A DNA stretch of 33,910 bases, taken from a virus. Position 1 is the first letter of the stretch, and each line of letters starts with the position of its first letter. A model generated the notes under the pieces. That model was given only the letters and a program-made list of their open reading frames with translations. It did not search any database and was not told the origin of the DNA. The stretch lies in the IMG/VR virus record IMGVR_UViG_3300018074_000013, positions 1 to 33,910 of that record; one strand, written 5' to 3'. This document shows positions 14,792 through 27,067 of the stretch, in pieces. The translations under genes were made by a program, and so were the position numbers.

Positions 14792-15742
14792 GTGCCAAGC
14801 GTAACCCTCGCAGAATCGGCCAAGCTGTCTCTGGACATGCTAGTGTCTGGCGTCATCGAAAATGTCATCGTCGTCGATCAGATGTTCGAGTTTCTCCCTT
14901 TCTCCGAGATCGAGGGCAACTCGCTCGCGTATAACCGAGAGAACGCACTTGGCTCGGCCGGTGTGGCGGGAGTTGGTACCCTCGTCTCGACGGCCGTCAA
15001 TCCAATCGACAGCTCCACCAACGCCAAGAACCCGGCTACATTCACCCAGGTCAATGTTTCGCTGACCACAATCCTGGCAGACGCCGAGGTGAATGGCCTG
15101 ATTCAGGCGACCCGGAGCACCATCAATGATCAGAAGGGCGCCCAGGTTGCATCGAAGGCTAAGCATCTCGGGTACATCTTCCAGCACATGTTCATCAACG
15201 GTACGGGCGCGGCGAACCAGTTCAACGGCCTCCTGAACCTCGTACCGACCGGTCAGAAGGTGGCCACCGGCGCGAATGGCGGAGCGTTGTCCTTCGAATT
15301 CTTGGACCAGCTGCTCGACCTGGTGACGGCTAATAACCAAAGAGTGGACTTCCTCCTCATGCCGAGTCGGACCATCAGGTCCTATAAGGCCCTCCTCCGG
15401 ACGGCCGGGGGCGGAACCATCGAGGAGTTCATCACGATGCCGAGCGGGGACAAGGTACCATCGTACAGCAGTGTGCCGATCTTCCGGAACGACCGGATCC
15501 CCGTGAACCAGGTGAAGGGGACCGGGTCCAATCAGACCACGATCTTCGCCGGGGCCTGGGATAATGGCTCCATGACCGGCGGAATCTCGGGCCTCACTGC
15601 CAAAGGGGCGGCTGGAATCCGCGTCGAAGACGTGGGGATCGCCGAGGACAAGGACGAGACTATTACCCGGCTCAAGTGGTACGCGAGCCTGGCCCTCTTT
15701 AGCGAGAAGGCCATCTCGAGCGCCGACGGCATCACCAACTAG
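14792..15742 (+). CDS. Major capsid protein (HK97 fold)
   Basis: Main shell protein. GTG start with AGGAGGTAACCTACC before it. The N-terminus MPSVTLAESAKLSLDMLVSG, then VIENVIVVDQMFEFLPF and EGNSLAYNRENALGSAGV, is the characteristic start of a widespread HK97-fold capsid group. The middle has the long helix TRSTINDQKGAQVASKAKHLG and a FINGTG segment; later VDFLLMPSRTIRSYKALLRTAGG and the SVPIFRNDRIPVNQ strand, ending KWYASLALFSEKAIS. Length 316 aa is usual for a capsid lacking an N-terminal cleaved domain. No delta domain is visible, in agreement with a separate scaffold gene. Confidence 0.92.
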   Translation: MPSVTLAESAKLSLDMLVSGVIENVIVVDQMFEFLPFSEIEGNSLAYNRENALGSAGVAGVGTLVSTAVNPIDSSTNAKNPATFTQVNVSLTTILADAEVNGLIQATRSTINDQKGAQVASKAKHLGYIFQHMFINGTGAANQFNGLLNLVPTGQKVATGANGGALSFEFLDQLLDLVTANNQRVDFLLMPSRTIRSYKALLRTAGGGTIEEFITMPSGDKVPSYSSVPIFRNDRIPVNQVKGTGSNQTTIFAGAWDNGSMTGGISGLTAKGAAGIRVEDVGIAEDKDETITRLKWYASLALFSEKAISSADGITN

Positions 15743-15799: not shown

Positions 15800-16618
15800 A
15801 TGGCTTACTTTTTCGTGGAGCTCCCTACTGGATCTCTCAATGCGACCCGGTTCGACGGCGTCGGTACATATCTCGTTGAGGCAGCCAATGCCACCGAGGC
15901 GAAAAATATGTGTCGAGCTGAGCATTCCGGTGATTTCGGGTGGGAGGACGCTACGGCTACGCAGATCACGGGCGCTTTCGCGGCTGATCTGCTCGGTTGG
16001 GAATACCGCGTACGGGTCAGTCTCGCATCAGGTGGGGAGCCCGATCTGGTCGATGTGAGTGGAAAGGTGGCTGCTGGGCAGATCGGCGTCACCTCCATCA
16101 CCCTCGGGGCTGGAGGTACTGGCTACACCGTCAACGATGTGCTCACCGTCTCGGGCGGGACGTTCACCGCCTCGGCCCGGCTGAAGGCGACGACCGTAGC
16201 GGCTGGCGCCGTGACCGCGGCCGTTGTGATTGATCCAGGGCTCTATACGACCCTGCCGACGAATCCTGCTGCCGTCACCGGCGGGACCGGGACTGGGGCG
16301 ACCTTTAACCTCACTGGTACATCGAGTCTGAACAACGTCGTGATGTGCGGCGTCCTGACGAAGAAGTTGCAGGATACGGCGCCAATCGCCGGTGCGACCT
16401 TCGAGCCGGCGAGCAATCTGCTGACTGTGGCGGCTGCTAGTGACAACCTGGGCGATCGGACGCTGCGGGTGGAGACGTTTCCCCCAGGCGCTAAGGAACT
16501 GATGCCGTCGAGCCCGCTGGTGGGTACAATCGTCCACCAGGGCGCGGTTGGCGCGGCCTTGACGGTCGTCCTTCCGCTCCCAACCCCGATCCCAGTTGTC
16601 ATTCGGAGATTAAAATAA
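15800..16618 (+). CDS. Capsid decoration-like protein carrying a GGTGYTV module, 272 aa
   Basis: ATG with CATAGGAGAAATCG upstream. The N-terminal 90 residues start MAYFFVELPTGSLNATRFDG and contain VEAANATEAKNMCRAEHSGD, probably a small alpha/beta domain. Residues about 102-172 are a Gly/Thr/Ala-rich beta module ([19 protein letters not shown]...[12 protein letters not shown]) also found in the tail tube and tail-tip proteins. The C-terminal 100 residues include a DRTLRVETFPPG segment and a hydrophobic LTVVLPLPTPIPVVIRR end. Position directly after the capsid gene suggests a head decoration or capsid-stabilising protein; family not recognised. Confidence 0.7.
   Translation: MAYFFVELPTGSLNATRFDGVGTYLVEAANATEAKNMCRAEHSGDFGWEDATATQITGAFAADLLGWEYRVRVSLASGGEPDLVDVSGKVAAGQIGVTSITLGAGGTGYTVNDVLTVSGGTFTASARLKATTVAAGAVTAAVVIDPGLYTTLPTNPAAVTGGTGTGATFNLTGTSSLNNVVMCGVLTKKLQDTAPIAGATFEPASNLLTVAAASDNLGDRTLRVETFPPGAKELMPSSPLVGTIVHQGAVGAALTVVLPLPTPIPVVIRRLK
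16103..16315 (+). repeat. GGTGYTV coding module, copy 1
   Basis: About 71 codons. Landmarks: [31 protein letters not shown], a short variable strand with Y, PTNPAA and [12 protein letters not shown]. Homologous to the modules in the tail tube (19337-19552) and the tail-tip protein (three copies from 24416). Related at protein level and partly at DNA level (GGCGGGACCGG). Confidence 0.85.
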
Positions 16619-16821
16619 TGGGTAGTGTAATCCTGCGGCACATCAAGACTACCCCCGAGGGATGGAGTACGTACTCTGCGAGATGGAGCAACGTCGGGGA
16701 GGGTCTGCCACGCAGGCCGCAGCGCATGGCTCCAGAGATGCTCATTCCACAGAGAGAGACCGATAGGCGCTTCATCCCGAGGGGTGTCGATCGGAACACT
16801 CCGGGGGGCGGGAGACTGTGA
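16618..16821 (+). CDS. Unknown small basic protein, 67 aa
   Basis: ATG overlaps the upstream TAA (TAATG) and the gene ends right before the next GTG start (TGAGTG). The product (MGSVILRHIKTTPEGWSTYS...) is basic and rich in Arg, Pro and Gly, with little predicted structure after residue 30 and an Arg/Gly end. No family or motif was recognised. Tight coupling on both sides supports it as a real gene in the head-completion block. Confidence 0.65.
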   Translation: MGSVILRHIKTTPEGWSTYSARWSNVGEGLPRRPQRMAPEMLIPQRETDRRFIPRGVDRNTPGGGRL

Positions 16822-17331
16822 GTGGCATTCCTCATCCAGAACGATTCCGGCTCCGTGAGCGGGGCTAACGCCTACGTCACCGCCGCCGAGTTCAAGGCCT
16901 ACCATGCGGACCGAGGGGCGGACGTGGCCGGCGAGGCGGATGCCGACGTCCAGATCGCGATCATCAAGGCGACCGACTATATGGACCACCGCTTCCGCTT
17001 CCGGGGGGACCGCTCGACCGTCGCCCAGCGGACGGCGTGGCCCAGGACGCTCCCGGAGGATGACGACCAACATGCCAGGAGTGGCATACCACAGGAGGTT
17101 AAGGAGGCGTGCATGGACTACGCGCTGATCGCGTTGACCTCCGAGCTGAACCCGATCCCCACGCGGGACGCCGCAGGGGCCGTGGTCCAGTCCAGGAGCG
17201 AGCAGGTCGGGCCGGTGTCGGAGTCCACCAGCTACGTCGGTGGCGCCACGTTCTCGGAGCCCCGCTACCCGAAGGCCGACTTCAAACTCCGCGGGCTGAT
17301 CGAGCAGTCCGGTTACCTCGTGAGAGGATAG
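16822..17331 (+). CDS. Head-tail adaptor (DnaT-like domain family), 169 aa
   Basis: GTG start overlapping the upstream stop. The N-terminus has SVSGANAYVTAAEFKAYHAD, then VQIAIIKATDYMDHRFRFRGDR, QRTAWPRT, and a helical IPQEVKEACMDYALIAL. This 'ANAYVS...F..Y...A........A.I.ATDY.D..YRWRG......Q...WPR......IP..V..A' pattern is that of phage head-tail adaptor proteins often named DnaT-like ssDNA-binding by domain search. They sit on the portal and extend the connector. Location after the capsid genes and before other connector genes fits. Confidence 0.8.
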   Translation: MAFLIQNDSGSVSGANAYVTAAEFKAYHADRGADVAGEADADVQIAIIKATDYMDHRFRFRGDRSTVAQRTAWPRTLPEDDDQHARSGIPQEVKEACMDYALIALTSELNPIPTRDAAGAVVQSRSEQVGPVSESTSYVGGATFSEPRYPKADFKLRGLIEQSGYLVRG

Positions 17332-17332
17332 G

Positions 17333-17704
17333 ATGGCCCGGTTCGACATCCTGATCGCCACCGCCAAGCGGCTGCTGGCCAGGAACGGGGAGACCTCCAC
17401 GCTGTCCCGGGCTACCCCCGGGACACCGGCGGATCCGGCGAAGCCGTGGGAGCCCGGGGCGCCGGGCGTGACGAACACGAAAGTATCCGCGGTCTGGCTC
17501 AATGAGTCGGTCCTCCGCCGAGCCACGCTTGTCAAGGAGGGCGAGGTGTTCGCCATCCTGGCCGGGAAGGATCTCAAATCCGATCCGGACCCGGCGACGG
17601 ACGTCCTGATCAGGGCCGACAAGAGCCGGTGGGCGCTGATCGAGGTCAGGCCTCTGAACCCCAATGGGCAGAATCTTATCTTCGAGGTTACGGCGAGGCA
17701 GTAG
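17333..17704 (+). CDS. Putative head-tail connector / head-closure protein, 123 aa
   Basis: ATG behind GAGAGGATAGG, two bases after the previous stop. N-terminal helix FDILIATAKRLLARNGETSTL, then Pro-rich loop (TPGTPADPAKPWEPG), and a beta barrel-like C-terminal half (KVSAVWLNESV, EVFAILAGKDL, DVLIRADKSRWALIEVRPLNP). This layout, with 'I..DG..W.V..V.PL.P.G...LY.V..R' near the end, resembles small head-closure proteins that follow the adaptor gene. Function is assigned mainly by gene order. Confidence 0.7.
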   Translation: MARFDILIATAKRLLARNGETSTLSRATPGTPADPAKPWEPGAPGVTNTKVSAVWLNESVLRRATLVKEGEVFAILAGKDLKSDPDPATDVLIRADKSRWALIEVRPLNPNGQNLIFEVTARQ

Positions 17705-17706
17705 GT

Positions 17707-18156
17707 ATGCCGACGACCTTCGACGCAGCCAGGGATGAGATCCTCGGGGCCTTCAGGACGCGGTGGGAGGCCGACGCGGCGGCGATCGTCGGGTTCGTAC
17801 CCGACGTGTTTTACGACGGAGTACCGAGGACTAGCGCCCCATCTCCGGATAAGCCATGGGCCGATGTGACGATTCGGCACACGTCGGGTGCCCAAGCGAC
17901 CCTCGCCCAGGACACGGGCAAGCGGCGCTTCGAGAAGACCGGGATCGTGACCGTGGGCGTGTTCGCCCCCCTCGGGCAGAACCGCGGCCTCGAGGACGGC
18001 GAGAAGCTGGCTATGGTGGCTAAGAAGGCCTTCGAGGGTAAGGCGACCGCCGGCGGCGTCTGGTTTCGGAACGTGCGGATCTCGGAGGTGGGACAGGACG
18101 GGCCCTGGTTCGCTTTTCAAATTTTGGCCGAGATGCGATATGACGAGTTCGTGTGA
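17707..18156 (+). CDS. Tail terminator-like protein (DUF4128-like), 149 aa
   Basis: ATG at 17707, two bases after the upstream TAG; the frame is open upstream but overlapping the previous gene, so this start is chosen. N-terminal helix with DEILGAFRTRWEADAAAIVG, a VFYDGVPRTSAPSPDKPWADVTIRH segment and a QATLAQDTGKRRFEKTGIVTVGVFAPLG strand pair. This is the pattern of tail terminator proteins, which cap the tail tube and join it to the head. Typical length and position before the tail tube gene. Confidence 0.75.
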   Translation: MPTTFDAARDEILGAFRTRWEADAAAIVGFVPDVFYDGVPRTSAPSPDKPWADVTIRHTSGAQATLAQDTGKRRFEKTGIVTVGVFAPLGQNRGLEDGEKLAMVAKKAFEGKATAGGVWFRNVRISEVGQDGPWFAFQILAEMRYDEFV

Positions 18157-18184
18157 CGTGGTAGAATTACGGAGGAGTAAATAG

Positions 18185-19981
18185 ATGGTCGCTGTTCTTA
18201 AGATCGACAGTAACGTCGTGGGTCTCCGCATCGCGGAGGAGACGAGCCTGAAGGTCCTTCCGGGGACTCCAATCTGGGATCCGTTCGAGCCGAACTCCTT
18301 CGCCGACTTCGGCGGGGAGATCACGACAGTCGCCAGAAATCCCATTAACCCGGGGCGTCAGCGCAAGAAGGGCGTGACGACCGACCTCGACGCGAGCGGC
18401 GGGTTCAATACGGATCTGACACAGACGAACCTCCAGAAGCACCTCCAGGGGTTCTTCTTCGCGGACCTGCGGATCAAGACCGACCTGGACGTGGCGATCG
18501 TGGACACCGGCGATACCGGCGACGACTATGAGCCGGCGTCCGGCGGGACCGGCTTCCGGGTGAACGACCTGCTCTTTGCCTCGGGGTTCGCCGTCTCGCA
18601 GAATAACGGCCTGAAGGTAGTGACCGGCACCGTGACCGCGACGAGCGTCCCGGTGATCACGCCCCTAACCCCAGCTACCGGGCAGACCGGCAAGATCACT
18701 CGGGTCGGGCATCAGTTCGCCACGGGCGACGCCCGGATCGATACGTCCGGAGCCCTCCCGAAGTTGGTCACGACCACCAAGGATCTGACCCAGCTCGGGG
18801 TGATCCCGGGCGAGTACCTCTTCGTCGGCGGGGACGCGACCGCCGAACAGTTCGCCACGGTCGGGAACAATGGCTTCGCTCGGGTGCGCTCAGTCGCCAC
18901 GAACGCGATCGAATTCGATAAAACGGCCGGCAATATGGCGACCGACCTTGGGACTGGCAAGACCATCCGGGTCTTCCACGGGGCCAGGGTCCTCAAGAAT
19001 GAGACCGGTACCCTGATCAAGCGGCGCACGTATCAGCTCGAGCGGACCCTCGGGGCGCCGGACGACGCGCTTCCGACCCAGGTCCAGAGTGAGTACGTCG
19101 TGGGAGCCGTTACGAATGAGCTGACACTGAACATCCCGGTGGCCGACAAAGTAACGCTGGACCTGACCTACGTCGGGCTGGACGTGGAGCAGAGGACCGG
19201 CGCGACTGGCGTGAAGTCCGGCACCAGGCCGGCCCTCATCGAGGCCGACGCGTTCAACACGAGTTCTGACTTCTCCAGGATCAAGCTGGCCCGATTCGGG
19301 GCCAGCACGACGAATCGGGAGGCGCTCACGGCGACGGTGGGTGCCGGCGGTACGGGATATACCGTGAACGACATTCTAACGATCGTCGGCGGGACCTTCG
19401 CGGTCGCGGCCAAGTTCAAGGTGACGACCGTGAGCGCCGGCGCGGTGACCGCCGTCGTGGTGGACACCCGCGGTAGCTACACGATCACGCCGTCGAACCC
19501 GGCGGCCACGACCGGCGGGACCGGCACCGGGGCGACTCTGAACGTGACTTACGCGTTCATCGACACGTGGGCCAATCCGACTCCGCTCTTCGCGTTCGCC
19601 AGCGACCTGAGCCTGACCGTGAACAACAATGCGGACCCCCTGAAGGCGGTCGGTGTCCTGGGGGCCTTCGAGGTGGGCGTGGGGACCTTCGAGGTCGGCG
19701 GGTCGATGACCGTCTTCCTCGCCGACATCCCGGCGATCCAGGCCGTGAGGGACAACAGCGATGTGACGCTCGACGTGCACCTCGTGAAGTCCAATGCCGG
19801 GATCTCGGTCGACGTGCCTCTTCTGACCCTCGGCGACGGGAGGCCGGATGTTGCTCAAGATGAGCCTATCACGCTGCCCCTAACGATCAATGCGTCCACC
19901 GGGGCGAAGATCAGCACGAGTCTGGACCATACGCTTTTGATCTGCTTCTATGATTTTCTCCCAAGTGCTGCTGACGTGTAA
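18185..19981 (+). CDS. Tail tube protein with inserted GGTGYTV module, 598 aa
   Basis: ATG with ACGGAGGAGTAAAT upstream, a strong SD. The N-terminus has the tail tube pattern: [20 protein letters not shown], then [40 protein letters not shown] and [10 protein letters not shown]. At 598 aa it is far longer than a usual major tail protein because of extra domains. Residues 385-456 carry one full GGTGYTV module, and residues about 115-134 hold a degenerate one ([17 protein letters not shown]). The C-terminal part ([22 protein letters not shown]) returns to a tail-tube-like beta domain. Extra domains probably decorate the outside of the tail. Confidence 0.82.
19337..19552 (+). repeat. GGTGYTV coding module, copy 2
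   Basis: About 72 codons inside the tail tube gene: [55 protein letters not shown]. Clearly the same module as at 16103-16315. A shortened relative lies near 18527-18590. Confidence 0.85.
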
Positions 19982-20343
19982 TGCCTCCTGGATCCTATTA
20001 CCGAGACCAGTTCCTCTCGGACGTCCGGCTCAGCTCCGGCGAGCACTCCGGCGCGGCGGTCACGACCGTCGTCCCGGGGGCCGCGGGTCTCCGGACGTTC
20101 ATCTTTCACATGCATTTCTCCGGGAACAATATCGCCGTCAGCGCGGCGGACATGGCGATCGACCTAGGGACGATGGGCGCGCACTTCAAGTGTCGGATAC
20201 CTCTGAGCGGTCATCAGACCATCGAGGTCAACTTCGGGGACTACCCGCTGATCGTCTCGGCGGGGCAGGGCGTCAGCATAGCGACGTTCTCTCCGTGGCT
20301 CGGTCAGTGCTCCGGGACGTTCCAGTGGGTGCAGGCGGCGTAA
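19981..20343 (+). CDS. Unknown tail-region protein, 120 aa
   Basis: ATG overlaps the stop of the tail tube gene (TAATG). Small beta-rich protein: FLSDVRLSSGEHSGAAVTTV, GLRTFIFHMHFSGNN, IDLGTMGAHFKCRIPLSGHQ, VNFGDYPLIVSAGQGVSIAT. The layout looks like a small jelly-roll or decoration protein, with faint similarity in style to the 2308/3133 proteins. No signal peptide. Its coupling to the tube gene suggests a tail accessory role. Confidence 0.7.
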   Translation: MPPGSYYRDQFLSDVRLSSGEHSGAAVTTVVPGAAGLRTFIFHMHFSGNNIAVSAADMAIDLGTMGAHFKCRIPLSGHQTIEVNFGDYPLIVSAGQGVSIATFSPWLGQCSGTFQWVQAA

Positions 20344-20373
20344 GAACCGATTTCTTTCATAAGGAGGAATCTC

Positions 20374-20778
20374 TTGAGCCTATATAAACTTTTCAAGACG
20401 GATCCCAGGTGCGAAACAGAAGGCGTGACCCTGGACTACGGGGACGGGGTCAAGATTCGGATCGCCAGGGCTGGGGGGAGCAACAAGAACTACATCAAGG
20501 CCATGGACAGGCTCGGGCGCAAATACCATCGCGAGCTTGGTCTGGACATTCTCCCTGAGGAAACGGCCACTCGCCTTTACCAGGAGCTATACGCTGACTC
20601 GGTGATCCTCGGCTGGGAAGGTGTCTCGGATGAGGCCGGGAATCTCCTGCCCTTCTCCCGTGAGGCCGTACTGAAGGTGTTCGCAGACCTGCCGGACCTC
20701 TGGAACGACGTTCGAGCCCAAGCTCAGAGCATCGAGCTCTTCCGGGCCGATCTCACGGAGCGCGAGGCAAAAAACTAG
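20374..20778 (+). CDS. Tail assembly chaperone, short form (G-like)
   Basis: TTG start with AAGGAGGAATCTC upstream, a perfect SD. The 134-aa protein starts MSLYKLFKTDPRCETEGVTL and has LDYGDGVKIRIARAGGSNKNY followed by helices, the usual pattern of the first tail assembly chaperone. It is placed between the tail tube and the tape measure genes. Its last codons GCA AAA AAC TAG contain a -1 slippery heptamer, so part of the ribosomes would continue into the extension at 20775-21167. Chaperones of this type coat the tape measure protein and recruit tube subunits. Confidence 0.85.
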   Translation: MSLYKLFKTDPRCETEGVTLDYGDGVKIRIARAGGSNKNYIKAMDRLGRKYHRELGLDILPEETATRLYQELYADSVILGWEGVSDEAGNLLPFSREAVLKVFADLPDLWNDVRAQAQSIELFRADLTEREAKN

Positions 20779-20808
20779 CCGAGGTCCTCCTCCATGAGTT
20801 GGAGGTGG
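20769..20808 (+). promoter_or_regulatory. Programmed -1 frameshift site (A AAA AAC) and hairpin
   Basis: AAAAAAC at 20769-20775 is in the X XXY YYZ phase of the chaperone frame, with the stop TAG right after it. Ten bases downstream, CCTCCTCC (20786-20793) can pair with GGAGGTGG (20801-20808) around ATGAGTT: five inner pairs, one U-U mismatch, two more pairs. The -1 frame is open across the site to 21167. Gene position matches the lambda G/GT arrangement. Confidence 0.85.
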
Positions 20809-21167
20809 GCCGAAGCGAGGCGGCGGTGATCGAGCAGTGCCGGCGCGAGCGGCGCTCGCTACCGCCGAAGATAGCCAATGCTCCGGAGCTCTTCGTCGGT
20901 CTGGAGTGGGTATGGGATGCATTTAGAGACCTCAGCACTTGCCGGCCGGCAGGGTTCAGTGGCCCGATGCCAATTCCGTGGACGGCAGCGGCCCAGTACG
21001 CCGAGGCCCATGGGATCGAAGGGGAGATGTTTGACAGACTCAACATTTACGTCAAGTACATGGACGCGGCTTTCCTGAAATGGTATGATAGGACCCATGG
21101 CCAGAAGATTAAATCTGGCGGAATTTCACAGGCGCATGGAGGTGCGAGCTATAGGCGTCATCGCTGA
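20775..21167 (+). CDS. Tail assembly chaperone -1 frame extension (GT-like)
   Basis: Expressed as a fusion: codons 20374-20775 joined to 20775-21167, total 264 aa. The extension begins LAEVLLHELEVGRSEAAVIE and has a central part (LFVGLEWVWDAFRDLSTCRP; PIPWTAAAQYAEAHGIEG; FDRLNIYVKYMDAAFLKW) typical of the second chaperone module in siphoviruses. There is an internal TTG at 20799 but the SD-like GGAGG lies after it, not before, so independent start is unlikely. It overlaps the next gene in another frame by 71 bases. Confidence 0.8.
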   Translation, partial: LAEVLLHELEVGRSEAAVIEQCRRERRSLPPKIANAPELFVGLEWVWDAFRDLSTCRPAGFSGPMPIPWTAAAQYAEAHGIEGEMFDRLNIYVKYMDAAFLKWYDRTHGQKIKSGGISQAHGGASYRRHR

Positions 21168-21546
21168 GTTGGAGAAAACTATGCGGAAGGCGGCTCTTAG
21201 AGCTGATCAGGTAGCGGTCCTCGCTACTCCGGTCGATACCGGCAGGGCCCGGGCGAACTGGATTGCATCTACTGGTCAACCGGTATCGGAGGCTCCGGAG
21301 GGATCGCAGTCAGGGAGCACGAAAGAGGCTAGAGGAGCCAATGCGGCGGCAAAGGCGTTACAGCAGGCACAGAAGATCGTACAGGAATATACCTTGAGTC
21401 AGGGCAGCATCTTCCTTTCAAACAACGTCGAATATATCGTCCCGCTCGATCAGGGCAGTTCCAGACAGGCGCCCGCCGGCATGAGTGCCGCAGCAACTGC
21501 AGCGGCGACGGATGTGTTCCGGCGGGCAAGGCTACTCAGGAAATGA
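21097..21546 (+). CDS. HK97 gp10-like protein, 149 aa
   Basis: ATG at 21097 is chosen (product starts MARRLNLAEFHRR); ATG 21085 would add four residues. Pattern: N-terminal helix VRAIGVIAELEKTMRKAALR, then ATPVDTGRARANWIASTGQP, a Ser/Ala-rich middle, and ISL-type end with NNVEYIVPLDQGSSRQAPAGM. 'TPVDTGR.R.NW' and 'N..EY...LE.G...QAP.GM' are the markers of the HK97-gp10/neck protein family, usually encoded just after the adaptor genes. Its position after the chaperone genes is unusual. It probably acts at the head-tail joint or tail end. Confidence 0.82.
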   Translation: MARRLNLAEFHRRMEVRAIGVIAELEKTMRKAALRADQVAVLATPVDTGRARANWIASTGQPVSEAPEGSQSGSTKEARGANAAAKALQQAQKIVQEYTLSQGSIFLSNNVEYIVPLDQGSSRQAPAGMSAAATAAATDVFRRARLLRK

Positions 21547-21765
21547 CAGTAGAGACCTTAGGTGGGCAGCCTCCCGCTCTGCGCGTGCAGCCTCAAGCTC
21601 TCGAAGGATACGTGTCTGGATGTACGCCGGTCGCTGGACCCCGAATATCTCGTACTCGATCCGATTGTTCTCTTCGTCGATGGCTCGGATCGCCGCAAAG
21701 AAGCCTCGGCAAAAGCCACATCCAGTGAGACAGGTTAAGATTAGACCCAGAAGCAACGTTTTCAT
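21532..21765 (-). CDS. Antisense small lipoprotein, 77 aa
   Basis: Reads against all neighbouring genes. ATG (complement of 21763-21765) has AAGGGAG (complement of 21774-21780) eight bases before it, a strong SD. Lipoprotein signal MKTLLLGLILTCLTGC with lipobox LTGC, cysteine at residue 16, then CGFCRGFFAAIRAIDEENNR and a helical end (RILRELEAARAEREAAHLRS) likely to form a coiled coil. It fills the otherwise empty 263-base gap between the gp10-like and tape measure genes and overlaps the former's last codons. Could be a moron gene (exclusion or host envelope change) or spanin-like; no promoter was convincing. Confidence 0.7.
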   Translation of the reverse strand: MKTLLLGLILTCLTGCGFCRGFFAAIRAIDEENNRIEYEIFGVQRPAYIQTRILRELEAARAEREAAHLRSLLSFPE

Positions 21766-21809
21766 GACATCAACTCCCTTCAGGGACAAGATACAATGGT
21801 CTGAGGATT

Positions 21810-23927
21810 ATGGCCACTGAACGCATCGTAATAGAGATATCCGAGAGTGGGGCTCGCACTGTGAATCGTAGCCTCGAGGGTATCGGACGAACTGCCAGTG
21901 GGACGGGGCGCTCGATCGGCTTGCTTCGCCAGGCTCTGGTTTCCTTGGGCGCTGCCTTCGCGCTCCGGGTTACAGCCCAGTTCGGAGATGCCCTGGCCCG
22001 GGTCAGGGCCGTTAGTGGACTCACCGCTGATGCATTCTCCGATCTGAGGGAGGAAATCCTTCGGCTCAGTGCGGCCAGCGGCACAGATCCGGCCGGCGCA
22101 GCCCAGGCCCTATTCCAGCTCCAAAGGTCCGGGCTCGGTGCCGCAGCCGCCATGAAAACTCTGAAACAAGCCATGAAACTAGCAGATGTTGGAGGCCAAT
22201 CCCTGGCCGAGAGCACCGAGGCTGTAGCGCGGGTAACGACCGCCTTCGGCGTAACCGGCAAGCAGGCGGCAAACGTCCTAGGGGCAGCGTCTCTGCGAAG
22301 CCAGGAATCGGTCACGGAGCTAACCGCGAGCATCACCAGGTCGGCCAACGCGGCACGGGCGGCCAACGTCGGGCTGGAGGACGTGACGGCCGCGATCATC
22401 ACTCTGAGTCGATCCGGGGCCGAGGGGCGTATCGCCATAGCTGGCCTTCGCGAGGGCCTTGAGGCGCTTGAGACTCCGACCCAGAAGGAAAGGGCGCTCT
22501 TCCAGGAGCTCGGACTGAATCTCGATCGGCTTCGCCCATCGGTGACAGGGATTACCGGTTCCCTCCAGGAGCTGGCGCGGGCCGGCGTGAGTTTTGAGGT
22601 CCTCGGGGTACGTGGTGGTGCCGCCCTGGATGTTCTCGCCGCCAGGACGGGCGACGTGCGGGATCTCGTCGAGGAGATGGGCCGTGCCGGGAAGATCACG
22701 GACGACTTCGCTAAGGCGATCGACGAGTCGCTGGGCAAAGCGTTCAAGGAGCTATTGGCCTCGGTAAAGGCCCTGATCCTTTCCTTCGGCGGCGAAGGCG
22801 GCGAGGCGGGCCTTGCCGCCGCCGTGCGGGTGGTGGCGGAGGAGATTCAAGGTCTTGCGGTAATTACTGGCCAAGCCAGCCAAGGTCTCCAGCGATTCTT
22901 CGAGTTCTTCACCGTCGCCCAGGAGGACAAAGTCGAGAGAGCCCGGCTCAGGACCGCCGGATTGAGGGTGGAGATCGAAAAACTCATGAGGACGACGCGC
23001 GCGGGGGCGGAAGCGCGCGGCATCATCGAAATCGGCCCCCCCTCGCCAGTATCTACCACCCTGGACGAGGCATTTCCCCAGCGCGCTCGTGCGCCCACCC
23101 GCGAGGAGCGGCTCCGGACGGGGGAGGCCGGGGCACTGCGCGCCGAGGAAGAGGCGATCAGGAGGCGGAGCGCGATCCGGGACCAGGCGATAAGCCAGGC
23201 ACGAGAGATCGCCGACCAGCAGGATAGGCTCCGCATCTCGGAGGAGGCTTTGATAGAGGCAGTGAACCTTGGGACCGTCTCCCGGCAGCAGGCAAACCGG
23301 GCCCTAGCGGAACTGAGGCTCCAGATGCCTGAGGCCATTTCCGGGCTTCAGGGCATGCAGGCAGCGCTCTTCGCCGTGGACACCTCCGCCGGGGCGCTCG
23401 GTGCATCGATCGGACAGTCGCTGGTCGGGGCGATTGATACGGCGAGTGGGGCGCTGGCTGAGTTCGCGATCAGTGGCGCTAGGAACACGGAGGATCTCCG
23501 GGAGGCATTTGCCAAGCTATTGGAGGATTTGGGAAAGCAAATCTTGCAGTTAATTATAAAAACATTGATTCTCAAGGCGATCCAGATAGCTATAGGTGAT
23601 GTAGCGGGGGGAGGTGGGGGTGCAGCGGCGCCAATACTTACTGGGAGCAGCCTTGGAACCGGGTTCCAGGCCGGCGGGCCAGTGAGGCGCGGTCAGATCG
23701 GTCTAGTTGGCGAACGGGGTCCAGAGTTAGTACAATTCGGAGGAGCCGGACACGTGGTGCCGGCCGGAGAAACCGCTGAGATGCTGGAACCTCAGGTAAA
23801 TATTCGGGTTATAAACGTAACAGATCCAAACGAGATCACGAGCACGATGAACAGTCCGACTGGCGAGCAGGTGATCCTGAATGTCCTAAGTCGGAATGCA
23901 CGAGCGATGCGGAGAATCCTGGGATAA
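21810..23927 (+). CDS. Tail tape measure protein
   Basis: Sets tail length and is injected ahead of DNA. ATG with CTGAGG close upstream. 705 aa, mostly alpha-helical and Ala/Arg/Glu-rich. Residues about 40-280 have the TP901 core-like pattern: FGDALARVRAVSGLTADAF, SAASGTDPAGAAQALFQLQR, ALAESTEA-type TTAFGVTGKQAANVLGAASL, and SRSGAEGRIAIAGLREGLEA. Then a coiled-coil part (QAREIADQQDRLRISEE). A hydrophobic segment ILKAIQIAIGDVAGG comes before the C-terminal GGPVRRGQIGLVGERGPELV motif, which is common at tape measure ends. The length corresponds to a tail in the order of 100 nm. Confidence 0.9.
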   Translation: MATERIVIEISESGARTVNRSLEGIGRTASGTGRSIGLLRQALVSLGAAFALRVTAQFGDALARVRAVSGLTADAFSDLREEILRLSAASGTDPAGAAQALFQLQRSGLGAAAAMKTLKQAMKLADVGGQSLAESTEAVARVTTAFGVTGKQAANVLGAASLRSQESVTELTASITRSANAARAANVGLEDVTAAIITLSRSGAEGRIAIAGLREGLEALETPTQKERALFQELGLNLDRLRPSVTGITGSLQELARAGVSFEVLGVRGGAALDVLAARTGDVRDLVEEMGRAGKITDDFAKAIDESLGKAFKELLASVKALILSFGGEGGEAGLAAAVRVVAEEIQGLAVITGQASQGLQRFFEFFTVAQEDKVERARLRTAGLRVEIEKLMRTTRAGAEARGIIEIGPPSPVSTTLDEAFPQRARAPTREERLRTGEAGALRAEEEAIRRRSAIRDQAISQAREIADQQDRLRISEEALIEAVNLGTVSRQQANRALAELRLQMPEAISGLQGMQAALFAVDTSAGALGASIGQSLVGAIDTASGALAEFAISGARNTEDLREAFAKLLEDLGKQILQLIIKTLILKAIQIAIGDVAGGGGGAAAPILTGSSLGTGFQAGGPVRRGQIGLVGERGPELVQFGGAGHVVPAGETAEMLEPQVNIRVINVTDPNEITSTMNSPTGEQVILNVLSRNARAMRRILG

Positions 23928-23934
23928 TGAAAGC

Positions 23935-24275
23935 CCCAACCCACGCCCTACCGCGCTTCGCCTGCCGAGCCGTGCCGGGCCGTGCCCAGCCGTGCCCAGC
24001 CACACCTGCCAAGCCGCGCCGTGCCTTACCAAGCCGCGCCCAGCCTTACCATGCCGAGCCATGCCGATCCACGCCTGCCATGCCTTGCCGGACCACGCCA
24101 AGCCGCGCAATGCCTTGCCAAACCGTGCCATGCCTCGCCTGCCATGCCTTGCCGGATCGTGCCGTGCCCTGCCGTGCCGCGCCCTGCCGAGCCGAGCCCT
24201 GCCTGCCATGCCTTACCGAGCCAAGCCAAGCCAAGCCACATGCCGAGCCGAGCCGCGCCACGCATACAATGTTCT
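23935..24275 (+). repeat. Non-coding GCCNN pentanucleotide array with 64-bp higher-order period
   Basis: This 395-base gene-free stretch between the tape measure and tail-tip genes is almost entirely GCCNN units (GCCGA, GCCGT, GCCAA, GCCAT, GCCTT and so on), with rare 4-base GCCT units that shift the phase. The block GCCTGCCATGCCTT recurs at 24073, 24137 and 24201, exactly 64 bases apart. Plus strand is C-rich, minus strand G-rich. All three plus frames are open, but the 5-base period makes any translation a rotating low-complexity string with no SD, so it is treated as non-coding. Function unknown. Confidence 0.85.
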
Positions 24276-24322
24276 GCCAGTGCAGTACATGATACGATGT
24301 TTACGACAGAGGATGCAAGCTA

Positions 24323-26089
24323 ATGCCCATTGACACCGGAACTGCGACATCGTACATAGACCTCCTCAACCAGCTCCGCCTGTTCTCGACTGGCACTTCC
24401 GCCGCTACCGCCGTCGTCTCCGCCGGCGGCACAGGCTACACTGTGGGCGATGTTTTGACCCTGACCGGCGGGACCTTCTCGAAGGCCGCACAACTCCGGG
24501 TCACAACGGTCGCCGCCGGAGTGGTTACTGGCGTCGTAATCCATAGGCATGGCGTGGCTTACACCGTGAACCCGTCGAACCCAGTCTCCTCCACCGGCGG
24601 CACCGGGACCGGCGCCACGTTCACGGTGACATTCGCCTCGGTTGGCTGGAGCACCAAGCGCGAATCGAAGGAGGCCGTTTCTGCCACTGTAAGTGCCGGT
24701 GGAACCGGACACGCCGTAAATGATATCCTGACGCTCGTCGGTGGAACCGCCCCGGTTCTGGCTGCGCAATTTAAAGTAACAGCCATAAGCGCCGGCGCCG
24801 TAACGACGGTCGTCCGGTGGTCCCGGGGCAATTACCCTGAGACCCCGGCCAATCCAGCTTCCACCACTTCCTCGGGCGCTGGCACTGGATGCACTCTGAC
24901 GGTCATCTATCAGGTAGTGCTCCTCGATTCGGATCAAGAGATAAGTGCCGCAGCCATTGTCTCGGGTGGAACCGGTTATACTGTAGCCGACATTCTCACT
25001 GTTACTGGTGGAACATTTACGACCGCCGCCCAGCTCAGGGTCCTCACGATTTCCGCCGGAGTGATTACGACAGTGGCGGTCCACACAAAGGGCGAGTACT
25101 CGATCAATCCGACGAACCCGGTAAGCGTAACGGGCGGCACCGGCACTGGGGCGACGTTCAATCTGACTTTCGTCGGTGTCCATCCGGATAACAATAAAGA
25201 GCTGATCCTCGAGGGAGTCGGTTCTGGAGCCGATCAGGTGTTCGTCGGCATGCGGACCGAGCAGCACGACCCGAGCGGGTCGCGCTACTGGAACCTGGCG
25301 GGCTTCACGGGCTACCAGGCCGCATCGACCTTCGATACGCAGCCGAGCCGATCGACCGTCGGGGCGCTCTTCACGAACAGCCTCGCCTCCCAGACCTACT
25401 GGTTCTTCGCGAATGGGCGCCGAATCATAGTCATAGCCAGGATCGGCTCCTCCTACCTGAGCTGTCACCTCGGATGGATTAACCCGTTCGCAACAGCGAT
25501 TCAATATCCGTACCCCATGGCGATCATCGGGTGCTCCTCGACATCGATCCGCCTCCCCTCCGAAACCGGGATCAGCCTAAGCGGGATCGTGGATCCAATC
25601 GGGCATACTAGCAGTGCCGTAGGCCCGGCCTTCATCCGGGATCCTGGGGGGAGCTGGAAGATAATCAAGAACAGCGAAGAGATTGGCGGAGGGGCCAGGA
25701 ACTACACGAGTGATCTCAATCTCTTTCCCGCTGGATCCGTGGACAATGGCGGAGCGGGGTTCAACCCCCAGGACTTTTCAGGCGGGGCATACACGACCCG
25801 GACCTTCGTGCCAGTAACCGGCAGCCCGGGGACGGTGACGATCAGGCACGCGCAGATACCGGATTCGCCGAACCACAGGTCGATTCTTTTCCCGACTATG
25901 ATCGTTGAGCGGACGCCCGTGCAGCAGGCGTATGGGGAACTGGCCGACGTCTATTGGGTCAGCACGCTCGGGAACGTCACGAATCTTGTAGCGGAGGATC
26001 TGATTGTGAGTGGGACCGATAGGTATATCGTCTTCCAGCAGGCGAACAGATCCGATCTGCATGCGCACTTCGCGGTGAAGGAGGGATAG
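24323..26089 (+). CDS. Tail-tip/fibre-like protein with three GGTGYTV modules, 588 aa
   Basis: ATG behind AGAGGATGCAAGCTA. N-terminal 25 residues (IDTGTATSYIDLLNQLRLF) resemble those of the next gene (YETGVASSQEDFLTKLSTF). Residues 32-104, 122-196 and 212-283 are three GGTGYTV beta modules. From residue 290 (NNKELILEGVGSGADQVFVG) the protein again follows the next gene's layout, including YWFFANGRRIIVIARIG against YHFFAGSVFLHVALEYA. It is therefore a paralog of the 26105 gene with a module cassette inserted near the N-terminus. No signal peptide. Position after the tape measure suggests a distal tail or fibre protein. Confidence 0.75.
   Translation: MPIDTGTATSYIDLLNQLRLFSTGTSAATAVVSAGGTGYTVGDVLTLTGGTFSKAAQLRVTTVAAGVVTGVVIHRHGVAYTVNPSNPVSSTGGTGTGATFTVTFASVGWSTKRESKEAVSATVSAGGTGHAVNDILTLVGGTAPVLAAQFKVTAISAGAVTTVVRWSRGNYPETPANPASTTSSGAGTGCTLTVIYQVVLLDSDQEISAAAIVSGGTGYTVADILTVTGGTFTTAAQLRVLTISAGVITTVAVHTKGEYSINPTNPVSVTGGTGTGATFNLTFVGVHPDNNKELILEGVGSGADQVFVGMRTEQHDPSGSRYWNLAGFTGYQAASTFDTQPSRSTVGALFTNSLASQTYWFFANGRRIIVIARIGSSYLSCHLGWINPFATAIQYPYPMAIIGCSSTSIRLPSETGISLSGIVDPIGHTSSAVGPAFIRDPGGSWKIIKNSEEIGGGARNYTSDLNLFPAGSVDNGGAGFNPQDFSGGAYTTRTFVPVTGSPGTVTIRHAQIPDSPNHRSILFPTMIVERTPVQQAYGELADVYWVSTLGNVTNLVAEDLIVSGTDRYIVFQQANRSDLHAHFAVKEG
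24416..25171 (+). repeat. Three tandem GGTGYTV coding modules, copies 3-5
   Basis: Copies at about 24416-24634, 24686-24910 and 24956-25171, each 72-75 codons. Shared marks are S[AG]GGTG[YH][TA]V.DILTLTGGT, AQ[LF][RK]V..[IV][SA]AG.[VI]T..V, P.NP and G[TA]GTG.T. Copies 3 and 5 are closest to copies 1 and 2; copy 4 has drifted (GGTAPVLAAQ, SSGAGTGCT). Linkers of about 16 residues hold charged segments such as STKRESKEAV. Confidence 0.85.
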
Positions 26090-26104: not shown

Positions 26105-27067
26105 ATGGCATACGAGACAGGAGTAGCATCTAGTCAGGAAGACTTTCTAACGAAGCTCTCAACGTTCGCCCAGGCTAATGGGTGGACGCAGGACGAACTG
26201 GACGTGCCGAACAAGGAGCTGGCGATCCGCAGAAACAACGTCTTCATCTCCTTCCGCTGGGACGCGGTGGCCACCACCGGCGGGATCGCGATCTTCCAGG
26301 CGCTGGGCTTTACCATGGGGAACACGCCGGGGAACCATCCGAATGACTCGGGCTCAGGCCTGATCAGTGGCACTCCCATCAGCTCCCAGCGGCGGCTCGA
26401 TCGGATTGGGAATGGGCCATTCACGGCCTATCACTTTTTCGCCGGTAGCGTCTTCTTGCACGTAGCGTTAGAATATGCGCCCGGATTGTACAGGCACTGC
26501 TCCTTCGGGGAGCTGGTGAAGAACGGGACATGGACCGGCGGGGAATACTGCGCTGGGCACACGTGGGCCGGTGACCCGGACTCGCCGGCGAACCCGTCCC
26601 ACTGCGTGCTGGTTGATTGGCGGAGCCAGTTATCTAATCTCGAAGGTGCCACGGTCCACGTCGAGGGGATGCCGGGCGAAGGCGGGACGAGCAAGTGGGG
26701 CGTGGTCATCGACAGCACGACCGTCGGGAACGACCGCGCCGGCATCGCCCGCGTGACGTGTCTCGGCGGGCTGAGGGACGGGTTCCTGTTCAATGCGCTG
26801 CATTTTATTCGATCGAATCCTGGCAACGGCTTCGTCTCTATGGCTCCGCTCCAGGTCTATTATCGACGTCTCCTCTCTCCCGAGCAGTGGTTCAAATTGG
26901 GCACGATCCCAGGTATGCGTGGGATCAACATACATTTCATCAACCCAGCAGAAGCGTTTACGATTGGAGCAGATACTTGGCGCTGCTTCCCATACGTACG
27001 AAAACAGTTCCTGCAACTAAATACCGATGAATCTGGCAATTGGGGAATAGCCTACCGTCAGGCGTAA
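26105..27067 (+). CDS. Tail-tip/fibre-like protein, paralog without modules, 320 aa
   Basis: ATG with CAAGGTGATCCG upstream. N-terminus AYETGVASSQEDFLTKLSTF, then GWTQDELDVPNKELAIRRNN and VFISFRWDAV. Rich in Gly, aromatic residues and His in the middle (FTAYHFFAGSVFLHVALEYA; CSFGELVKNGTWTGGEYCAG), with several cysteines. It lines up end to end with the non-module parts of the upstream protein. Likely a virion protein at the tail tip, probably beta-rich; no enzyme motif seen. No named family recognised. Confidence 0.75.
   Translation: MAYETGVASSQEDFLTKLSTFAQANGWTQDELDVPNKELAIRRNNVFISFRWDAVATTGGIAIFQALGFTMGNTPGNHPNDSGSGLISGTPISSQRRLDRIGNGPFTAYHFFAGSVFLHVALEYAPGLYRHCSFGELVKNGTWTGGEYCAGHTWAGDPDSPANPSHCVLVDWRSQLSNLEGATVHVEGMPGEGGTSKWGVVIDSTTVGNDRAGIARVTCLGGLRDGFLFNALHFIRSNPGNGFVSMAPLQVYYRRLLSPEQWFKLGTIPGMRGINIHFINPAEAFTIGADTWRCFPYVRKQFLQLNTDESGNWGIAYRQA

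Follow-up and report, generated by a model that had tools for sequence, protein, structure and literature searches.

A recurrent beta module in decoration-like, tail tube and tail fibre proteins of a predicted YuA-like siphophage

Introduction

Phage tail proteins are well documented as domain mosaics (PMC10684548), and immunoglobulin (Ig)-like domains are promiscuous across five classes of phage structural proteins (PMC9022992). These domains (Big_1, Big_2, I-set and FN3) occur in tail fibre, baseplate, tube, capsid and Hoc proteins and are often dispensable; in the work cited in that paper, the shuffled surface domains of phages have been Ig-like ones since 2006 (PMC9022992). Another small virion domain has been described in the contractile sheath of phage T4, where domain I of gp18 is an insertion that protrudes from the sheath and makes no sheath-sheath contacts (PMC3004832). 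Its partners are the baseplate and the long tail fibres in their retracted state, and retraction is blocked by mutations in this domain (PMC3004832). Here, we report a computational analysis of a module of about 73 residues that occurs five times, in three virion proteins, in the viral record IMGVR_UViG_3300018074_000013 (33,910 nucleotides, or 33.9 kb; hereafter, the window). Like the Ig-like domains, this module is found in several classes of virion protein, namely decoration, tube, fibre, hub and Hoc-type proteins. Unlike them, its structural match is gp18 domain I, and within one virion a single sequence family spans three classes of protein. Phenomena of this kind are thus known; what is new is the fold and its sharing by the head, shaft and fibre of one particle.

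A preliminary description of the window, made from its letters and open reading frames (ORFs), had claimed five copies of a shuffled surface-display domain in a decoration-like, a tail tube and a "tail tip" protein, together with a degenerate sixth piece near position 18527. It had called for a profile search, a tree of the modules and a structure prediction of the tube protein, and the outcomes are given below.

Results

A module profile was built from other viruses only, with no window sequence included, and searched against the 185 ORFs of the window. It recovers exactly five modules (E 1e-23 to 1e-33) in three virion proteins, and no further convincing copy among these ORFs. Their scores of 75-108 bits compare with a best of 9.6 bits among 900 shuffled copies of the three host proteins. 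All five are encoded on the plus strand. The decoration-like protein carries one at residues 100-171 (16097..16312; profile match to residues 96-176, E 2e-28) and the tail tube protein another at residues 383-454 (19331..19546; match to residues 379-459, E 1e-31). The tail-fibre protein holds three in a row, at residues 30-102 (24410..24628), 121-194 (24683..24904) and 210-281 (24950..25165), with profile matches to residues 26-107, 117-199 and 206-286 at E 5e-30, 2e-23 and 1e-33, respectively. The profile and the shuffles therefore bear out the five copies of the preliminary description, whose coordinates agree with ours within a few codons.

The five copies share 50-69% of their residues pairwise, and the conserved positions are mainly turn-forming Gly, Pro, Asp and Thr. 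Nucleotide identity among them is 50-67%. Where two copies have the same residue, they share the codon in 20-49% of cases depending on the pair, compared with about 36% expected from codon usage; the tube-decoration pair has the highest sharing, a mild excess, and no other pair is in excess. Codon sharing near expectation, taken together with the protein identity, indicates that the copies are old and that their protein sequence has nonetheless been kept. Recent duplication and assembly artefact are both ruled out by this codon sharing and the level of nucleotide identity.

The usual home of the module in this phage group is the tail fibre. The fibre protein of the window (24323..26089, plus strand; 588 residues) is orthologous to YuA gp70 and shares the fold of JBD30 gp47/gp48, as indicated by phmmer (8rk3_c, 1.3e-10), by phrog_687 (E 2e-39) and by a structural model that matches 8rk3_K with Z 31.2 over 303 residues. 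The protein previously labelled "tail tip" is accordingly a tail-fibre protein of the JBD30 gp47/gp48 type. JBD30 (8rk3) and YuA (gp70/gp71) have this fold in common with the window, and the gene order after the tape measure is alike; the differences are that JBD30 has no module of this size and that in YuA-type gp70 an F5/8-type domain occupies the site. The modules lie between an N-terminal helix and the fibre core in one to three copies, and among relatives the site holds one to three or more. In some module-free relatives, the same site is occupied by an F5/8 type C galactose-binding-like domain, which scores 33.8 bits in locus L166, above the cut-off, and more weakly in YuA gp70 and L121. 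The YuA-type gp70 fibres of L088:17600-19123 and L166:9691-11166 both have the F5/8 type C domain where others have modules. The adjacent gene (26105..27067, plus strand) encodes the second tail-fibre protein, of the YuA gp71 type and partner of the first (phrog_687, E 3e-35), in which the profile search finds no module. Unlike in the window, a gp71-type second fibre protein with a module is found in another phage (L060:4068-5255, L061:9678-10865).

The tube protein (18185..19981, plus strand; 598 residues) is the YuA gp66 orthologue and is 57% identical to YuA-group tubes. It belongs to PF18906 (Phage_tube_2; 76.4 bits against a cut-off of 27) and is modelled with the duplicated tube fold of T5 and P74-26 (8xan, Z 30.3; 8ed0 of P74-26, Z 26.8; T5 pb6, Z 20-24), with a predicted local distance difference test (pLDDT) score mostly above 90 outside the module. 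Alignment with relatives places the module in an insertion of about 96 residues (371-466; 19295..19582, plus strand) where relatives have 5-9: the site is 9 residues long in 59 of 62 aligned relatives and forms a loop of about 8 residues in 33 sampled loci. In the model, strands 363-370 and 472-480 flank the insertion, and we read the site as the loop from beta1 to beta2 in the second tube domain, a loop that would link the outer to the inner sheet. In tube proteins generally, the outer sheet contains beta1 and the inner sheet beta2, and in lambda an exterior Ig domain contacts the beta1-beta2 loop of a neighbour (PMC8718954). The insertion loop is variable, with a mean entropy of about 2 bits, compared with 0.9 bits for the conserved ring-stacking loop.

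The supposed sixth piece lies in the same protein. It occupies 18527..18640 (plus strand; tube residues of about 115-152) and is a native part of the tube peripheral domain, with a pattern (ND/GDL-FA-GF---NNGLK-V) that is kept in dozens of orthologous tubes without a module; this conservation rules it out as a further copy, and the preliminary description is revised on this point. It scores 12.9 bits against the module profile, compared with a maximum of 8.9 bits for shuffles and 8-11 bits for some module-free relatives. Across 18512-18680, the native peripheral domain of the window and of several relatives is slightly more like the start of the module than shuffled sequence is. This weak likeness may reflect chance, convergence or very remote homology.

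The third carrier (15800..16618, plus strand; 272 residues) is a decoration-like virion protein encoded directly 3' of the major capsid gene and orthologous to YuA gp57 (phrog_15312, E 6e-17). YuA gp57 aligns with it on both sides, and the module interrupts the region between the two halves. The gene position and the annotation of YuA gp57 as a "phage particle protein" suggest that this putative decoration protein sits on the outer capsid face. An orthologue in L107:6513-7478 (322 residues) seemingly contains part of its own body twice.

Orthologous sites without the module are the rule in two of the three proteins. Of 80 loci fetched by tube similarity alone, and not by the module, one is a contig of the virus in the window itself. 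The tube module is absent from all of the others (79/79), whereas 16 of their 23 fibre orthologues have the fibre module, at one site. The decoration site is empty in 19 of 20 other IMG/VR orthologues; the exception, L142, has a module at the same site as the window. These proportions (16/23 for the fibre against 1/20 for the decoration protein and 0/79 for the tube) identify the fibre as the usual carrier. Tubes of two other lineages have also received modules elsewhere, in a different loop inside the peripheral domain (L053 and L054) and in a third loop between the two tube domains (L058). In a tree of 124 modules, the tube copy of the window and its middle fibre copy are sisters (support 98/91), and the decoration copy of L142 falls inside a clade of fibre modules (99/97). 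Sites empty in orthologues, a tube copy that is sister to a fibre copy and carriers in unrelated phages all favour the shuffled domain that had been proposed.

Relatives of the module are present in at least 289 viral contigs. Beyond fibre proteins, they are carried by a central tail hub (L014), by Hoc-type decoration proteins that also have SGNH hydrolase domains, and by numerous large structural proteins. Searched by tblastn against named phages, the tube module finds no match at E 1e-3, and the three-module stretch of the fibre matches Hoc-type proteins. The Hoc-type decoration proteins of Karamvirus (PG7) and Risingsunvirus (PHROG 9703) have one copy of the same module; they differ from the decoration-like protein in an SGNH/GDSL-hydrolase-type domain after the module and in a body other than the YuA gp57 type. 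Twenty-one module matches lie in bacterial genome contigs, which were given only a brief look as to cellular origin.

In the fibre model, all three modules are small all-beta units with about six strands each, and the first copy is modelled best (pLDDT of about 90-94). In VIA, the third fibre module aligns with residues 99-188 of T4 gp18 (3fo8) at Z 5.9, with a root-mean-square deviation of 2.6 over 68 residues and 19% identity. The best three VIA matches after JBD30 are all tail-sheath chains at domain I (3fo8, Z 5.9; 3foa, Z 5.6; and 9f4a, a Klebsiella phage sheath, Z 4.2), with unrelated chains next at Z of 3.5 or less. The module thus has the beta-barrel fold of T4 gp18 residues 98-188, with the moderate Z denoting fold likeness and not proof of descent. 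There is no Ig fold among the VIA matches listed for the modules, an absence that excludes nothing, and none of the Big_1, Big_2, I-set and FN3 models matches any of the three window proteins with E of 1 or less. A search of solved-structure sequences with the module profile returns one chance antibody match only.

At the sequence level, the Pfam model of gp18 domain I (PF22639, Gp18_dom_I) has its sole match in the 33.9 kb on the tube copy (19325-19462; 13.1 bits). It also falls exactly on the modules of L026 (6e-6), L055 (8e-6) and L019 and, when whole records are searched, on those of L043, L050 and L058 and on the Hoc protein of PG7. Relatives score up to 26.5 bits, compared with 130-132 bits for the T4 and PG7 sheaths and a cut-off of 27. 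In the T4-like phage PG7 (L100:3647-5182), the gp18-domain-I fold of the sheath is accompanied by a weak match of the same family in Hoc, which has an SGNH-hydrolase-like C-terminal end. Like the module, T4 gp18 domain I is a small beta-barrel inserted into a virion protein, and the GxxYxVGD motif of the two is in register. Unlike the module, it is part of a contractile sheath; the carriers in the window, decoration-like, tube and fibre proteins of a siphophage type, are not sheath proteins. We therefore regard the module as a probable distant relative of gp18 domain I and not as a member of PF22639.

The gene order of the window matches that of Pseudomonas phage YuA: terminase, portal, head morphogenesis, scaffold, major capsid, decoration-like gene, connectors, tube, chaperone, tape measure, two fibre genes and tail assembly genes. 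The virus is read as a tailed phage, a YuA-like siphophage. The major capsid protein (14792-15742) slightly exceeds the cut-off of the SrpI-like encapsulin Pfam model (24 against 22.8 bits), which agrees with the relatedness of capsid and encapsulin noted for this phage family (PMC11946847). The gap between the tape measure and the fibre genes (23927-24280) is filled by about 300 bases of a degenerate, TGCCG-like five-base repeat, for which Tandem Repeats Finder reports 50.8 copies at 62% match. An Rfam scan of the window gives no match.

Discussion

We propose that the module is a shuffled, exposed accessory domain for display or adhesion, a beta-barrel distantly related to gp18 domain I and a non-Ig counterpart of the phage Ig-like domains, and we put the probability of this reading at roughly 0.6. 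Under this proposal, three virion proteins of the phage would have received the module in loops that face the solvent. From its home in the fibre, copies in this lineage would also have entered the tube protein, where the copy is nearest to the middle fibre module, and the decoration protein. Projecting from the particle, the module would act as an adhesin or spacer that is accessory and multivalent and has low affinity; building head, tube and fibre would not require it, and it may bind, for example, a cell-surface glycan. An accessory adhesin is the best guess in view of relatives that dispense with the module, repeated insertion into loops, tandem copies in the fibre and exchange for a galactose-binding-like domain.

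The proposal depends on the orientation of the module, which likely faces outward on both tube and head. The tape measure and DNA have to pass through a tube lumen of about 40 A, which makes an outward position of the module a reasonable inference. The site in a loop, the contact of the lambda Ig domain with the corresponding loop and the protrusion of gp18 domain I point the same way. Of the surface display claimed in the preliminary description, exposure is thus likely, although in the predicted tube structure, from which exposure was to be judged, the module has a pLDDT of 40-62 and its direction is not visible. This low confidence arises because the tube was modelled from an alignment of tubes alone, while mixed alignments meant to add module homologues misplaced them. 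The uniform particle surface that the preliminary description also suggested is conjectural, as is binding of mucus or polysaccharide, for which the F5/8-type domain at the fibre site of some relatives is the closest hint.

Besides that low-confidence region, several observations count against what we propose. Many forks of the module tree lack resolution, since only 72 columns are available, and the decoration copy of the window is unplaced. The likeness to gp18 appears only in the second look with VIA and in Pfam, against the silence of Foldseek, which with the whole fibre model finds nothing significant in the PDB besides JBD30. Every non-sheath PF22639 score is below the family cut-off, and the alignment of module and sheath domain I by hhalign is weak (probability 53%, E 1e-4). 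The single-sequence profile score of T4 gp18 does not exceed the best of 3000 shuffles, though it is in register. Ligand binding, finally, enters only as a best guess.

Other explanations start from the same observations. If the modules were without a ligand, acting as stabilising caps or as spacers that are tolerated, and recombination in Gly-rich, GC-rich DNA had spread them, then conservation concentrated on turn-forming residues is what the fold alone would produce. This is unlikely, however, given that synonymous sites approach saturation with protein identity still retained, that the fibre site of relatives holds a galactose-binding-like domain instead and that insertion sites have been re-used independently. 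The retraction of T4 fibres onto gp18 domain I (PMC3004832) and the mutual closest kinship of the tube and middle fibre copies lend some appeal to contacts inside the particle, in which fibre modules would dock on tube modules and control the folding or release of the fibre. Yet most relatives have modules in the fibre and none in the tube, so a partner module is not needed, and the decoration copy, far from the fibres, is left unexplained; we consider docking quite improbable. That the insertion adjoins strands building the tube core could also suggest a structural part of the tube wall or of the interface between rings. All other tubes of the group do without the module, the loop is variable where the stacking loop is conserved, and in lambda it is an exterior domain that reaches this loop, so such a role is very hard to credit.

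A broader version of the adhesin proposal is possible, and we offer it tentatively: the gp18-domain-I-type barrel may be a general phage adhesion cassette, separate from the Ig-like domains, that spread from the fibre to the shaft and head. If true, the whole particle would bind one polymer, such as host capsule, biofilm matrix or mucus, multivalently and many times over.

Overall, a fold other than Ig would play the part of a shuffled surface domain in hundreds of viral contigs, with independent insertion at several tube, decoration and fibre loops. Its probable kin in the T4 sheath is of known structure, an outward knob to which no clear general role had been assigned. Because orthologous proteins come in pairs with and without the module, what such knobs bind is directly testable.

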